Origin: an archaeon
GTDB lineage: Archaea > Iainarchaeota > Iainarchaeia > Iainarchaeales > Iainarchaeaceae
Reading direction: 5' to 3'
Assembly: GCA_024653865.1 (NCBI GenBank)
Contig: JANLHD010000097.1
Span: 1 to 8,149 of the forward strand
DNA: 8,149 nt
The notes under the pieces were generated by a model. That model had not been told where the DNA came from and ran no database searches. It worked only from the letters and a program-made list of their open reading frames with translations. Numbering within the stretch: position 1 is the first letter of the stretch; every line of letters starts with the position of its first letter. Below, piece by piece: positions 3,926 to 7,462 of this stretch. The position numbers and the translations under genes were made by a program.

Positions 3926-5380
3926 ATGGCGCCAACCGACAATGTCTCTAGCCTGAGCGAAATAGAGAGAAAAACCCTCAGGGTTCTTTTCCAAAACCCC
4001 CAAACAACCGGGGAAATAGCGTCCGCATCGGGGCTCAACATCGATTCGGTGAGAAGGGCGATCAACTGGCTCGAGCAAAAGGGGTTCGCCCAAACACAAA
4101 CACAAAAGAGCACGAGGCTCTTGCTCACAAAAGAAGGAAATGACGCGCTCGAAAAAGGCCTGCCCGAAGAGAGGCTTTTGAATGCGCTATCTGAAAAAAA
4201 CGCGGCGACTTTTTCCGAAGCAATGAAAAAAGCCGGCCTTAGCCAACAGGAGTTCAACGTGGCCCTTGGCATAAACAAGCGCAACGCATTTTTGGCGATC
4301 ACAAAAAAAGAAGAGCCCATGCTGCTTCTCACAGGGGTGAGTTCGGAAACAAAAAACCCGTTCCCCGAAAAAAAGGCATTGGAGGAAATTTTTGCGCGAA
4401 AAAAACCATCCGACCAGAATGCCGCAAAATCGCTCCTGTCACGGGGGCTTGCGGAAGAGAAGGAAGAATCGGAGCTTCGCGTGAAAATCACCCCGCAGGG
4501 AAACGCGGCGCTGAACACAAAGGAATTTTCCGAAGAAAGAAAATACAACATCCACGAAGCCGTGCCGCAAATCTATCCGGGAAAAAAACAGCCGTACGTG
4601 CAGTTTCTCAATAACATAAGAAGAAAGCTCGTTGGATTGGGTTTTAAGGAAATGCAAGAGCGCCTAATCAATCAGGAATTCTACAATTTTGACGTCCTCT
4701 TCCAGCCGCAAAACCACCCCGCAAGGACCTGGACCGACACATACCAGCTCACCTACCCCAAAATAGGCAGGCTCCCGGCAAAAGAAAAAGTGCTTGCAAT
4801 AAAAAATGCGCACGAACATGGCGGAAAAACAAACTCGAGCGGATGGGGTTATAAGTGGAGCGAGGAAATTGCCTCAAGGCTCATGCCAACCGCACACGGA
4901 ACAGCTGCGGACGCCAGGCAAATGGTGGAAGGAGTCGAGTATCCGAGAAAATACTTTGTGATAAACAGGTGCTTTAGGCCGGACGTCCTTGACGCAACAC
5001 ATTTAATAGAATTCAACCAGCTCGACGGCTTCATAGTTGGGCCGAACCTAAACTTTGCGAACCTTCTTGGAATACTCAAGGATTTTGCAAAAGAAATAGC
5101 AGGAGCAGAGGACGTCCGATTCTACCCGGACTATTACCCTTTTACGGAACCCTCCGTTCAATTGTCCGCAAAGCACCCAGAACTTGGATGGGTGGAATTT
5201 GCGGGCGCAGGAATATTTAGGCCGGAAATTACCCAAAGCCTTGGAATCAAAGGAAACGTGCTCGCATGGGGAATGGGAGTGGACCGGCTCGCAATGTTCA
5301 AGCTCGGAATAAAGGACATAAGGCACCTATTCTCCGACGATTTGAAGTGGCTGCGCGAGAGCAAAATGGTGATGGAATGA
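3926..5380 (+). CDS. pheS: Phenylalanyl-tRNA synthetase alpha subunit
   Basis: Catalytic subunit of the heterotetrameric class II synthetase that attaches phenylalanine to tRNA(Phe). At 484 residues it is of the archaeal/eukaryotic type. The N-terminal ~205 residues contain winged-helix DNA-binding-fold modules (TTGEIASASGLNIDSVRRAINWLEQKG at about 30-56) that bind tRNA in relatives, replacing the bacterial coiled coil. The class II core runs from about 208: QPQNHPAR (260-267), TAHGTAADAR (322-331), motif 2 with RCFRPD (348-353) and LIEFNQLDG, the active-site loop WVEFAGAGIFRPE (422-434), and motif 3 GMGVDRLAMF with Arg454. All expected signatures are present and nothing looks broken. ATG 3926 follows the promoter at leaderless distance. 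The last four bases, ATGA (5377-5380), also begin the next mini-ORF. First gene of an apparent operon with the coiled-coil gene and pheT. Confidence 0.96.
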   Translation: MAPTDNVSSLSEIERKTLRVLFQNPQTTGEIASASGLNIDSVRRAINWLEQKGFAQTQTQKSTRLLLTKEGNDALEKGLPEERLLNALSEKNAATFSEAMKKAGLSQQEFNVALGINKRNAFLAITKKEEPMLLLTGVSSETKNPFPEKKALEEIFARKKPSDQNAAKSLLSRGLAEEKEESELRVKITPQGNAALNTKEFSEERKYNIHEAVPQIYPGKKQPYVQFLNNIRRKLVGLGFKEMQERLINQEFYNFDVLFQPQNHPARTWTDTYQLTYPKIGRLPAKEKVLAIKNAHEHGGKTNSSGWGYKWSEEIASRLMPTAHGTAADARQMVEGVEYPRKYFVINRCFRPDVLDATHLIEFNQLDGFIVGPNLNFANLLGILKDFAKEIAGAEDVRFYPDYYPFTEPSVQLSAKHPELGWVEFAGAGIFRPEITQSLGIKGNVLAWGMGVDRLAMFKLGIKDIRHLFSDDLKWLRESKMVME

Positions 5381-5382
5381 AA
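5367..5382 (+). repeat. 16-bp direct repeat, copy 1 (pheS end, ribosome site and mini-ORF start)
   Basis: A perfect 16-base match to 5459-5474, 92 bases downstream. It holds a Shine-Dalgarno core GGTGAT (5368-5373), three spacer bases, and ATGA, in which the pheS stop TGA overlaps the ATG of the mini-ORF. Both copies end the upstream frame with Val-Met-Glu-stop. Part of the identity is expected because both are ribosome site plus ATGA, but the full 16 bases go beyond that need. Confidence 0.85.
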
Positions 5383-5472
5383 ACATTGCTGAATATTACC
5401 GCGGCATTGAGAAAAACGAAATGCCGCACATATGCGGTACAGCCGATCGCAAGCGGCTTGGTGATGGAATGA
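5377..5472 (+). CDS. 31-residue mini-ORF linking pheS to the coiled-coil gene
   Basis: It starts at the ATG overlapping the pheS stop (ATGA, 5377-5380), with GGTGAT three bases before it, and ends in TGA at 5470-5472, whose ATGA (5469-5472) starts the next gene. The product has no recognisable domain: hydrophobic start (MKTLLNITAAL), one Cys, one Tyr, no Phe, ending in GLVME like the pheS end (MVME). Ribosomes leaving pheS could reinitiate here and then at the coiled-coil gene. The peptide itself may not matter; the frame may simply carry ribosomes across the structured segment. It could also be a chance ORF inside an inserted unit bounded by the 16-bp repeats. Ribosome site and double stop/start overlap are visible; translation is inference. 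Confidence 0.42.
   Translation: MKTLLNITAALRKTKCRTYAVQPIASGLVME
5401..5427 (+). repeat. Hairpin A: 8-bp inverted repeat in the pheS downstream segment
   Basis: GCGGCATT (5401-5408) pairs perfectly with AATGCCGC (5420-5427) around an 11-base A-rich loop. The right arm is shared with the hairpin at 5422-5439, so the two cannot form together. No T-run follows, so it is not a bacterial-type terminator. Confidence 0.6.
5422..5439 (+). repeat. Hairpin C: 7-bp stem competing with hairpin A
   Basis: TGCCGCA (5422-5428) pairs with TGCGGTA (5433-5439) with one G-U pair and a 4-base CATA loop. The second arm GCGGTA (5434-5439) can also pair with TACCGC (5397-5402), the left flank of hairpin A. Which fold prevails may depend on ribosome position. 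Confidence 0.45.
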
Positions 5473-5474
5473 AA
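5459..5474 (+). repeat. 16-bp direct repeat, copy 2 (mini-ORF end, ribosome site and coiled-coil start)
   Basis: Identical to 5367-5382. Deleting one copy and the 76 bases between would join pheS directly to the coiled-coil gene by the same ATGA overlap, which is what an insertion or slippage duplication at an ancestral junction would leave. The flanking bases on both sides differ. Confidence 0.85.
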
Positions 5475-5478
5475 TCAC
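5461..5478 (+). promoter_or_regulatory. Hairpin covering the ribosome site and start of the coiled-coil gene
   Basis: GTGAT (5461-5465), the core of the Shine-Dalgarno sequence, pairs with ATCAC (5474-5478); the 8-base loop GGAATGAA holds the start codon ATG 5469-5471 and the mini-ORF stop. A ribosome finishing the mini-ORF would melt this stem. Repeat copy 1 has no such downstream arm. Five base pairs is a weak stem, so its effect is inference. Confidence 0.35.
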
Positions 5479-5795
5479 ACGCTGCAAAAAAAAGGACAAT
5501 AAATGTTCCGCAAGCGGACATAAAAGTTCTCAGGGGCATGGTAAGCGAACACGCCGGGCTTCCAGAAGTCAGCAAAAGAATTAGGCATCTAAAAATCCGA
5601 ATTGCAGAACTGGGAAAAGAGAGGCGGCGGAATGCGAACGATGGCATGAGAAAAAAACTTTCCGGCGAAAATGAACTGCTAATAGCCGAGCTTGGAAAAC
5701 TGCAGGAACAGGCGCAGATATTGACAGCAAACTTTGAATATGCAAAACGCCAACTTCAAATCATTCACGATTCAAAAAACGGGCACGGTAGGTGA
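5469..5795 (+). CDS. Coiled-coil protein of unknown function between pheS and pheT (108 residues)
   Basis: No known family recognised. After a basic N-terminus (KSHAAKKR) the protein is predicted mostly helical, with two heptad blocks: Val34, Ile38, Leu41, Ile45, Leu48 and, after a charged break (RRRNANDG, 52-59), Leu71, Leu75, Leu78, Ala82, Leu85, Phe89, Ala92, Leu96, Ile99, spaced 4-3-4-3 without interruption. It could be an antiparallel helical hairpin or a dimer. No Cys, no membrane segment. I chose ATG 5469 because GGTGAT lies three bases before it and it overlaps the preceding TGA; an in-frame ATG at 5421 would add 16 residues but has no ribosome site and overlaps the hairpins. The stop (5793-5795) overlaps the pheT ribosome site, so coupling to PheT is likely. 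A helper for PheRS assembly or tRNA binding is conceivable but unproven. Confidence 0.72.
   Translation: MKSHAAKKRTINVPQADIKVLRGMVSEHAGLPEVSKRIRHLKIRIAELGKERRRNANDGMRKKLSGENELLIAELGKLQEQAQILTANFEYAKRQLQIIHDSKNGHGR
5789..5795 (+). promoter_or_regulatory. Ribosome binding site deciding the pheT start
   Basis: TAGGTGA ends five bases before ATG 5801 and contains the coiled-coil stop codon TGA. The alternative GTG at 5792 overlaps this site and has no ribosome site of its own, so ATG 5801 is preferred. Confidence 0.65.
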
Positions 5796-5800
5796 ATGCA

Positions 5801-7462
5801 ATGCCGACGATAAATTCGAGCAAAAAGGACCTCGAGAGCCTTGTGGGAAAAAAATTCTCCCAAAAAGAGCTTGAGGACGCGCTCATGTTCGTGAAAGGCG
5901 AACTCGACGCAATAAACGGCGATGACCTAACAATTGATGTGAAGGAAACAAACATGCCGGACCTTTGGAGCACTGAAGGAATCGCACGCGAATTGCGCGC
6001 AAGAATGGGCATCGAAAAAGGAATCAAAAAATATCATGCGGAAAAGGCAAGAATAAGCTGCACGATAGAAAAGAGCGTAGAAAAAACAAGGCCATTTATT
6101 GCGTGCGCAATCGCGAGAAATGTGAAGGTAACAGAGAAATTTCTCGTTCAGATGATACAGCTCCAAGAAAAGGTCGGAATGACATACGGGAGAAAAAGAA
6201 GGGAAACGGGGATTGGCATTTATGATTTCGACAAGATGAAACCGCCGATATTCTATCGCGGCTATAAGGACAATGAAATAGAGTTCATCCCGCTCGAATA
6301 TCGCGTGAAAATGCGCCCGAGTGAAATACTCACAGAGCACCCCAAGGGAAAGGAATATGCGCATCTTCTAAAGGGCGCCGAATTCTTCCCTATAGTTATC
6401 GACTCAGCAGGGGTTGTCGCATCAATGCCGCCAATAATAAACTCCGAAACAACGGGCAAGGTAACCGAAAAAACCTCAAATATATTCATAGAGGTAACGG
6501 GATTTAATTGGAACACGGTGAACGTTGCGCTAAAAGTAATGTGCATGGCGCTTGCTGATAGGGGCGCCAAGCTCGAGGCAGTCAAAATAAACTTTCCTAA
6601 AACAAAATCTTATCCAACACAAAGCATCGAAACCCCATTTTTTGGCACCAAAAAAATTTCCCTGGACACCGAATACGCACAAATGGCAATTGGAACAAAA
6701 ATGAATGCAAGCCAAATGTCGGCAATTCTCCAGAAAGCCGGAATGCATGCAATTGCACAGGGAAAAAAAATCATGGTCGAATACCCGGATTACAGGATTG
6801 ATATTTTGCACCAAGCCGACATTGTGGAGGATATATTAATTGGGCACGGATACAACAACATCATGCCGCAGAAAGTGGAACTAAGCGTTGCGGGGGAAGA
6901 ACTTAGCGAAAAACTGTTCCTTGACAAGGCTCGTGATGTGTGCATAGGCCTTGGGCTGCAGGAAGTTTTGACCTTTAACCTTAGCTCAAAAGAAAAACAG
7001 CTCGAAAAAATCATGGCAAAAGACGAGCTTGTGCAGATTGCAAACCCCGTGTCTGTAAACTGGGAAGTCATGAGAAAGAGAATCGTTCCGGAACTTCTGG
7101 ACTTTCTCGCAAAAAATAAGCACGCCGAATATCCGCAAGGGATATTCGAAATAGGCACATGCCTCTCGATTGACAAAAATTCTGACACAATGGTTAGGCA
7201 GACCTATAATTTGGGGATTGCAATCAGTGACAGCCGCGCCAACTTCACCCGCATAAAATCCGTATTGGATGCGATAACAAAAAATCTCGGGATTGACTAT
7301 CGCCTTCGGGAAACAAAATCCGCGTTTTTGGACAACTCAAAGGCAGGGGATATTTTGGCGGGAAAAATGTCTGGCTTTATCGGCGAGATTTCACAAAAAT
7401 GCGCACAAAATTTTTCGCTCGAAACTAAAACTATAGTGCTCGAAATAGAACTCGTGCAATAA
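5801..7462 (+). CDS. pheT: Phenylalanyl-tRNA synthetase beta subunit
   Basis: Non-catalytic partner of PheS, involved in tRNA binding and in editing of mischarged Tyr-tRNA(Phe). At 553 residues it is of the shorter archaeal/eukaryotic type, lacking the bacterial EMAP-like and anticodon-binding ends. The N-terminus MPTINSSKKDLESLVGKKF and NMPDLWSTEGIARELR (about 50-65) are characteristic. The middle (about 100-260) matches the B3/B4 editing region (GIGIYDFDKMKPPI, then NVALKVMCMALADRG). YRIDILHQADIVEDILIGHGYNNI (331 onward) marks the B5-B6 region. The C-terminal class II-like domain ends with GFIGEISQKCAQNFSLETKTIVLEIEL. ATG 5801 fits both the family N-terminus and the ribosome site; GTG 5792 would add three residues. 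The stop TAA (7460-7462) directly abuts the rfcL stop on the other strand, so transcription must end inside the opposing gene. Confidence 0.95.
   Translation: MPTINSSKKDLESLVGKKFSQKELEDALMFVKGELDAINGDDLTIDVKETNMPDLWSTEGIARELRARMGIEKGIKKYHAEKARISCTIEKSVEKTRPFIACAIARNVKVTEKFLVQMIQLQEKVGMTYGRKRRETGIGIYDFDKMKPPIFYRGYKDNEIEFIPLEYRVKMRPSEILTEHPKGKEYAHLLKGAEFFPIVIDSAGVVASMPPIINSETTGKVTEKTSNIFIEVTGFNWNTVNVALKVMCMALADRGAKLEAVKINFPKTKSYPTQSIETPFFGTKKISLDTEYAQMAIGTKMNASQMSAILQKAGMHAIAQGKKIMVEYPDYRIDILHQADIVEDILIGHGYNNIMPQKVELSVAGEELSEKLFLDKARDVCIGLGLQEVLTFNLSSKEKQLEKIMAKDELVQIANPVSVNWEVMRKRIVPELLDFLAKNKHAEYPQGIFEIGTCLSIDKNSDTMVRQTYNLGIAISDSRANFTRIKSVLDAITKNLGIDYRLRETKSAFLDNSKAGDILAGKMSGFIGEISQKCAQNFSLETKTIVLEIELVQ

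Follow-up and report, generated by a model that had tools for sequence, protein, structure and literature searches.

A 92-bp unit at the end of an archaeal pheS gene belongs to a dispersed family of double-hairpin elements and probably moved there

How did a 92-bp unit, bounded by direct repeats, come to lie at the end of pheS, the gene for phenylalanyl-tRNA synthetase alpha, in an archaeon of the Iainarchaeaceae (Diapherotrites)? The unit lies in an 8,149-nucleotide stretch of DNA (the window), which is one complete contig (C119; JANLHD010000097.1) of an incomplete genome assembly of 986 kb in 176 contigs (GCA_024653865.1). The original prediction, made from this DNA alone, took it for a small inserted or duplicated unit that keeps pheS translationally coupled to the next open reading frame (ORF) through a ribosome site, a start, and a stop of its own. 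The insertion scar is real, and the interior is a member of a structured, dispersed, and gene-boundary-bound element family; coupling through the unit's own signals does not hold as a general rule. The unit is probably a copy of a double-hairpin pseudoknot element that moved into the pheS end and left that end duplicated. The members of the family have a covarying pairing pattern, are dispersed with patchy copy number, and in many cases lie flush with gene boundaries, and close relatives have empty sites. Below, G, C, and L numbers denote genomes, contigs, and loci, respectively.

The unit begins with the native end of its host gene. A repeat scan matches TGGTGATGGAATGAAAACA (5367-5385) with TGGTGATGGAATGAAATCA (5459-5477) at 18 of 19 positions, around a perfect 16-bp core, TGGTGATGGAATGAAA, at 5367-5382 and 5459-5474; the copies are spaced 92 bp apart and enclose 76 bases (5383-5458), exactly as predicted. 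None of 400 first-order Markov simulations of the window produced a direct repeat of at least 16 nucleotides (nt) with copies 20 to 300 nt apart. Copy 1 is the 3' end of pheS (3926-5380, plus strand, as are all features of the window named here; Pfam PF01409, 262.6 bits, and reading frame). The final codons GTG ATG GAA TGA (VME and the stop) make up most of the copy, and perfect identity with copy 2 ends 2 nt beyond the stop codon. The ATGA junctions that had been described on both sides are also present: the pheS stop TGA (5378-5380) overlaps an ATG at 5377, where a 31-codon ORF (MKTLLNITAALRKTKCRTYAVQPIASGLVME, 5377-5472) starts and runs through the element, and the TGA of this ORF overlaps the ATG (5469, within copy 2) of a 108-amino acid (aa) ORF (5469-5795).

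The enclosed bases are as rich in hairpins as had been claimed. Beyond a 5' part (5383-5400), folding places hairpin 1 at 5401-5427, with the inverted repeat GCGGCATT/AATGCCGC (5401-5408/5420-5427) as its arms; this is the variable-sequence hairpin of the family. Next come the linker ACATATGCGGTAC (5428-5440) and hairpin 2 (5441-5458), AGCCG-AT-CGCAA-G-CGGCT, which is recognized by pattern and covariation and whose arms are the inverted repeat AGCCG/CGGCT (5441-5445/5454-5458). Both inverted repeats were read from the sequence. By covariation, the linker GCG (5434-5436) pairs with the loop CGC (5448-5450), forming a pseudoknot. The foot of hairpin 2, at 5458/5459, is the sharp end of the element, and copy 2 starts right there. 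The stretch from 5367 to 5474 folds with a z-score of -2.43, and 1 of 200 shuffles was equally stable. A search of positions 5200-5700 found no inverted pairs of at least 12 nt, a limit that both stems of the unit fall short of. Against Rfam at E<=1, positions 5200-5900 gave a sole match, CRISPR-DR61 (E 0.92, sub-gathering) at 5559-5595, outside the unit; at gathering score, 14 element loci gave tRNA matches only.

Does this interior occur elsewhere? The original prediction had suggested a nucleotide search of the same genome, and this search drew a blank: the interior at full length has no second copy in its own genome or in ten genomes. Partial hits led to a similar unit, also with a spacing of 92, at the end of rpoB'' in G002, and the two units have GCGGTACAGCCGnnCGCAAnCGGCTTGG in common. 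Since the interior is unique as sequence, a nucleotide test alone would fail, and a structure-based search is needed. The layout of the family is hairpin 1 (free sequence), a linker, and hairpin 2 (of the AGCCGnnCGNAAnCGGCT type), where N'CG in the linker pairs with CGN in the loop as an H-type pseudoknot. The pattern GTACAGCCGNNCGCAANCGGCT, with up to two mismatches, is present at 14 places in 10 of 53 genomes, and its backward control at none. All 13 hits in the covariation alignment pair at the linker and loop base (GC in 7, CG in 3, UA in 3); the fourteenth, L157, has a linker without CG and was excluded.

A general pattern, in which N'CG and CGNAA are fixed and three or more pairs of the 5-bp stem must be G-C, recovers 141 elements; the 3.5 million bases scanned count both strands and include overlaps. 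The N' and N bases are complementary in 131 of these, and reversed controls gave 3 elements. With more DNA fetched, the collection grew to 189 elements, 178 of them complementary; the fetched stretches were largely chosen for holding model hits, so these counts are copies studied, not densities. L254 is one of the 11 elements without a complementary pseudoknot base, and the 189 do not include L265 (at the rpoB'' end of G003, with two G-C pairs), L141, or either of the two L038 units. Covariation is seen at all 6 pairs of hairpin 2 over 119 distinct rows, in an alignment that was fitted to the model.

The kinds of base pairs bear on the nature of the molecule. G-T pairs account for 6 of 950 pairs in hairpin 2 and for 0 of 189 at the pseudoknot base; the predicted upstream folds, hairpin 1 included, contain 150 wobble pairs among 2165. 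The near-absence of G-T fits a constraint on DNA or on both strands, and we read hairpin 2 as constrained as DNA, or alike on both strands. The 46 nt upstream of the pseudoknot fold with a median of -15.9 kcal/mol in 177 members, versus -8.2 for stretches 400 nt upstream. Readings as a C/D-box RNA, a ribozyme, or a TnpB guide, considered in thought only, were dropped because both orientations occur and hairpin 2 avoids G-U. At L108 (G004:C111, position 1654), an element-like pseudoknot hairpin lies just ahead of a stretch, GAGGAAAGTCC, that we take to resemble RNase P RNA; Rfam at gathering score gives no match in L108.

The family is widespread and unevenly distributed. A first model (R1) matches 30 of 53 genomes at E<=1, with 0 to 57 copies per genome. 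Of the phylum's 87 genomes, 27 are matched at E<=0.01 by a broader model (R2), whose counts range from 0 to 61. The highest R2 counts are 61 in G019, 26 in G028, 24 in G042, and 23 in G035. Copy number is zero or nearly so in families f8 and f17. R2 finds no copies in 12 genomes outside the order and 1 weak match in 30 genomes of more distant pheS loci, mostly Woesearchaeota; a woesearchaeotal unit, L078, is detected by its repeat and by the pattern, not by R2. The window's own genome holds two further copies of the pseudoknot pattern. One (L212) is flush with the 5' end of tRNA-Arg and the other (L210) lies inside a tRNA gene, which ARAGORN labels tRNA-His and which our reading of the GTA loop makes tRNA-Tyr. 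In addition, G028 and G035 contain runs of elements at close spacing (L235 5037-5202, L236 925-1110, L249 8099-8340, and L250).

In many copies, the hairpin 2 foot directly adjoins a stop codon, the end of a tRNA, or the border of a tRNA intron. For 178 elements, tRNA positions were taken from ARAGORN with introns allowed, which found tRNAs near 62. Within -2 to +5 nt, the foot adjoins the 3' end of a tRNA in 22 of the 178 and the 5' end in 8. Another 10 are contained in a tRNA; their foot coincides with the intron border, at a distance of 35-40 nt from one end of the tRNA. When the windows were moved by 700 nt as a control, tRNA hits numbered 0 and 2. Elements at the same kind of site occur in both orientations. 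Protein genes show a similar precision: at 31 elements, an antisense ORF of 150 aa or more stops between -6 and +60 nt from the foot, and 22 of these stop within 2 nt, compared to 2 of 24 in four shifted controls together. The tRNA-Ser(GCT) genes of three families (L168, L173, and L174) carry an antisense element at the intron border.

How often is a gene end duplicated, as it is at pheS? At 19 of 175 elements, a repeat scoring at least 15 is anchored no more than 2 nt from the foot, versus 6 of 690 shuffled pairings; a few of the 19 match one element to another (L236) or are a single site read on both strands (L150). We examined 13 sense repeats behind protein genes, the window included. In ten (the window, L107, L265, L254, L180, L125, L078, L302, the L038 unit at 739/851, and L141), the stop codon stands at the same place in both copies and identity is lost 0-4 nt after it. 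Two of these, L038 and L141, are outside the pseudoknot pattern; L265 is just under the stem rule, and L254 lacks the complementary base, as noted above. The two copies end in different stop codons in six of the ten (L107, L265, L254, L125, L141, and L302). In the tRNA cases L190 and L156, the repeat extends to the tRNA 3' end. Repeat lengths in the stronger cases are not constant, at about 16 to 42 nt, and inserts in gene-end cases are 55-79 nt long. Two further arrangements were seen: at L209 (about 2417, minus strand), three copies of a coding block are separated by two different inserts, as if a gene end had been hit twice, and at L038 (739-890), a perfect 40-bp repeat of a gene 3' end with a spacing of 112 surrounds two GC-rich hairpins that are off-pattern.

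These repeats also bear on the proposed coupling signals. The repeat in the window is the native pheS end, and among ten traced cases the frame of the downstream copy is open back to the upstream copy in six (the window, G002, G003, G005, L078, and L038) and closed in four (L180, L125, L226, and L141). The codons of the copies carry a further signal. The 13 repeat pairs comprise 114 codons, 26 of which differ, 16 of them synonymously; 8.0 synonymous differences are expected if only the upstream copy is constrained (P 0.003) and 4.9 under neutrality (reached in 0 of 2000 trials), for a small, hand-built codon set and a null without transition bias. Nucleotide differences fall mostly on the third codon position (21, compared to 9 on the first and 5 on the second). 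Both copies may have been working gene ends when they met, as with an integrase site arriving from another lineage, or the downstream copy may also be used.

If the unit was inserted, relatives should exist without it. We inspected pheS junctions at 23 of the 55 relative loci found. In L032 of G002, the one locus among them that could be placed in the same genus, pheS joins the next ORF with no insert, by a TAATG overlap. By eye, pheS also seems to lead directly into pheT in relatives including L036, L039, and L043. In the window, pheT (phenylalanyl-tRNA synthetase beta) lies at 5801-7462 (Pfam PF17759, PF03484, and PF03483), and the 108-aa ORF, which has no Pfam match, stands between it and the unit. 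Some relatives (L032, L050, L073, and L079) seem to hold different small ORFs between the two genes. The end of rpoB'', a gene identified by Rpb2 domains 1-3 (Pfam), gives a second comparison: it is occupied in G002, empty in G001 of the same genus (protein 95% identical) and in G005, and filled by a different double-hairpin insert in G003 (L265). These differences at rpoB'' and pheS imply that units come and go between close species.

Two observations made at these loci stand apart. On G004:C21 and G006:C18 (L267, L268, and L274), the rpoB'' matches are split in two within one long frame (1014 and 1547 aa), as if an intein or some other in-frame sequence had been inserted close to the C-terminus. 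At L038 (JAFGBZ010000019.1, 2905-3014), the pheS/pheT junction has an independent 18-bp direct repeat, ATGCCGACAATTGAATCA, also with a spacing of 92, which duplicates the apparent pheT start around an A/T-rich hairpin without the pseudoknot motif. General direct-repeat scans also return coding and low-complexity repeats, and those are not counted here.

A route that fits this pattern can be proposed. The element would move as DNA, by way of a single strand in its double-hairpin fold. A trans-acting recombinase would join the foot of hairpin 2 to a point inside a gene end, and the other end of the element would land just past the stop codon or the tRNA 3' end. A working gene end would be kept in this manner, as with integrases whose attachment site restores the gene.

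Several observations weigh against this account. No mobilizer was identified among RVT_1, Y1_Tnp, and Cas1 proteins; tyrosine recombinases (PF00589) were not searched. A reverse transcriptase is present in 3 of 53 genomes (G008, G010, and G043) and Cas1, as a sign of casposon or CRISPR insertion, in 6 of 53, none of them high-copy; a Y1 transposase is found in 17 of 53 with no link to copy number. The window's genome keeps 1 match with R2 at E<=0.01 and 6 with R1 at E<=5. The flanking-repeat score is below 15 in 156 of the 175 elements. Three of the 13 protein-gene repeats do not fit, since those of L226 and L209 lie inside the reading frame and the downstream copy of L304 has decayed; L235 and L298 also carry repeats, left unclassed. 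Nine of the 22 flush antisense stops use two element bases, so those frames may be truncated by the element. The ORF that follows pheS in L032 matches the 108-aa ORF of the window at a BLASTP E of 5.4; this does not demonstrate homology, and the empty pheS site is thus syntenic, not base for base. Lastly, the tRNA-Ser(GCT) elements look old and could be kept for function.

Four other explanations account for parts of these data. The unit could be a transposon-like insertion made by a staggered cut with a long, variable target-site duplication, where insertions elsewhere have been lost and those near gene ends remain. Direct repeats that begin at a fixed end of the element, the patchy copy number, and the duplications inside reading frames at L226 and L209 all fit this idea. 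However, random duplications should not end 0-4 nt past a stop codon, as 10 of 13 do, or at the end of a tRNA, as in L190. Survival alone would also permit any distance past the stop, but the foot is no more than 2 nt away for 22 of 31 antisense stops. A repeat that stops at the gene end is not expected of a random staggered cut and matches the sites of gene-restoring integrases; we consider the transposon-like origin unlikely. The flush positions might instead reflect function, with the hairpins of an RNA-processing or transcript-end module setting points of cleavage or termination. tRNA 5' ends, 3' ends, and intron borders are all cut sites of pre-tRNA, and the same tRNA gene is occupied in three families. 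Against such a module, both orientations are seen at the same kind of site, hairpin 2 is nearly free of G-U, and presence differs between species of one genus; we consider it quite improbable.

The synonymous excess and the elements at intron borders inside tRNA genes raise the thought that the insert is spliced out or bypassed by the ribosome, so that the downstream copy supplies the real C-terminus in some messages. This is very unlikely: the upstream copy alone completes the protein in ten cases, two already-different gene ends brought together would give the same codon signal, and that signal comes from the small, hand-assembled set described above, in which L304 has zero synonymous changes. 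It is hardly credible that the unit is a real gene for a 31-aa coupling peptide, serving as a leader or linker between pheS and the ORF behind it. Its frame is open from ATGA to ATGA, as are the frames of the G002, G003, and G005 units with their ATGA overlaps, but the peptide has no Pfam match and no counterpart at the L032 junction. Agreement between the peptides of the window and G002 is mostly confined to residues that hairpin 2 dictates, and each otherwise ends in the C-terminus of its own host. Four of the ten traced cases have a closed frame at the corresponding place, so we do not treat the 31-aa frame as a gene, and we see no evidence for that status.

The insertion of a double-hairpin element that duplicates the gene end can be compared to known systems. 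The closest likeness is to tyrosine-integrase attachment sites in icd, fis, and tRNA genes, including that of the virus SSV1, where the insert is flanked by two copies of a block that starts within the gene and extends to its 3' end, and the host gene stays whole. PMC10111431 describes attP sites that bring along a substitute for the target gene's end; at fis, the identity block is the 15-nt gene terminus including the stop codon. For SSV1, PMC3293823 gives a 44-bp tRNA-Arg repeat. Gene-restoring repeats of this kind are found in the window and in 9 of the 12 other protein-gene cases, the misfits being the three named above. In contrast to integrase sites, the window interior of 76 nt has no room for an integrase gene, and the element occurs in many different genes, with a conserved double hairpin and pseudoknot, and also at tRNA 5' ends and intron borders.

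Short, non-coding, multicopy, and patchy elements that sometimes yield an in-frame peptide also include miniature inverted-repeat transposable elements (MITEs) and Rickettsia palindromic elements, the latter of about 150 bp (PMC10969869). Unlike MITEs, the window unit has no terminal inverted repeat of at least 12 nt, the duplication is not short and fixed, and the preference for gene boundaries is sharp. Hairpins of the REP/RAYT and IS200/IS605 systems are thought to act as folded single-stranded DNA. To our knowledge, these systems leave no target duplication. They depart from our family in their transposase as well, since no Y1 transposase was found in G000, G019, G035, G042, G032, or G045, several of which are incomplete; one is present in G028 and G041. 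Repetitive or double hairpin elements of mitochondrial genomes, such as those of sponges (PMC2800124), are likewise short hairpin elements dispersed in intergenic DNA. They differ in belonging to another domain of life. They are not known to have a pseudoknot or a gene-end duplication. Archaeal tRNA introns resemble the ten elements inside tRNA genes whose foot is at the intron border; unlike those introns, the family also occurs outside tRNAs and in both orientations, and the window unit is not in a tRNA. PMC3293823 proposes that tRNA introns can be gained from a mobile element. Among the titles and abstract openings returned by searches of an open-access library, none describes the element family; subscription papers mostly fall outside that scope.

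Taken further, and only tentatively, the family may represent a new class of mobile element: a double hairpin of 60-75 nt with a Watson-Crick pseudoknot that acts as folded single-stranded DNA, is moved by a host recombinase, docks with single-nucleotide precision at stop codons and at the ends and splice sites of tRNAs, restores the gene ends that it enters, and is a present-day source of new archaeal tRNA introns. If this is true, the genomes of Diapherotrites are seeded with a minimal mobile element that is base-precise at gene boundaries and does without a known transposase. They would then be a model in which to study how, in very small genomes, essential genes escape damage by insertions. 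In addition, the same element, caught at both tRNA ends and an intron site, would offer a route to the long-debated origin of archaeal tRNA introns.

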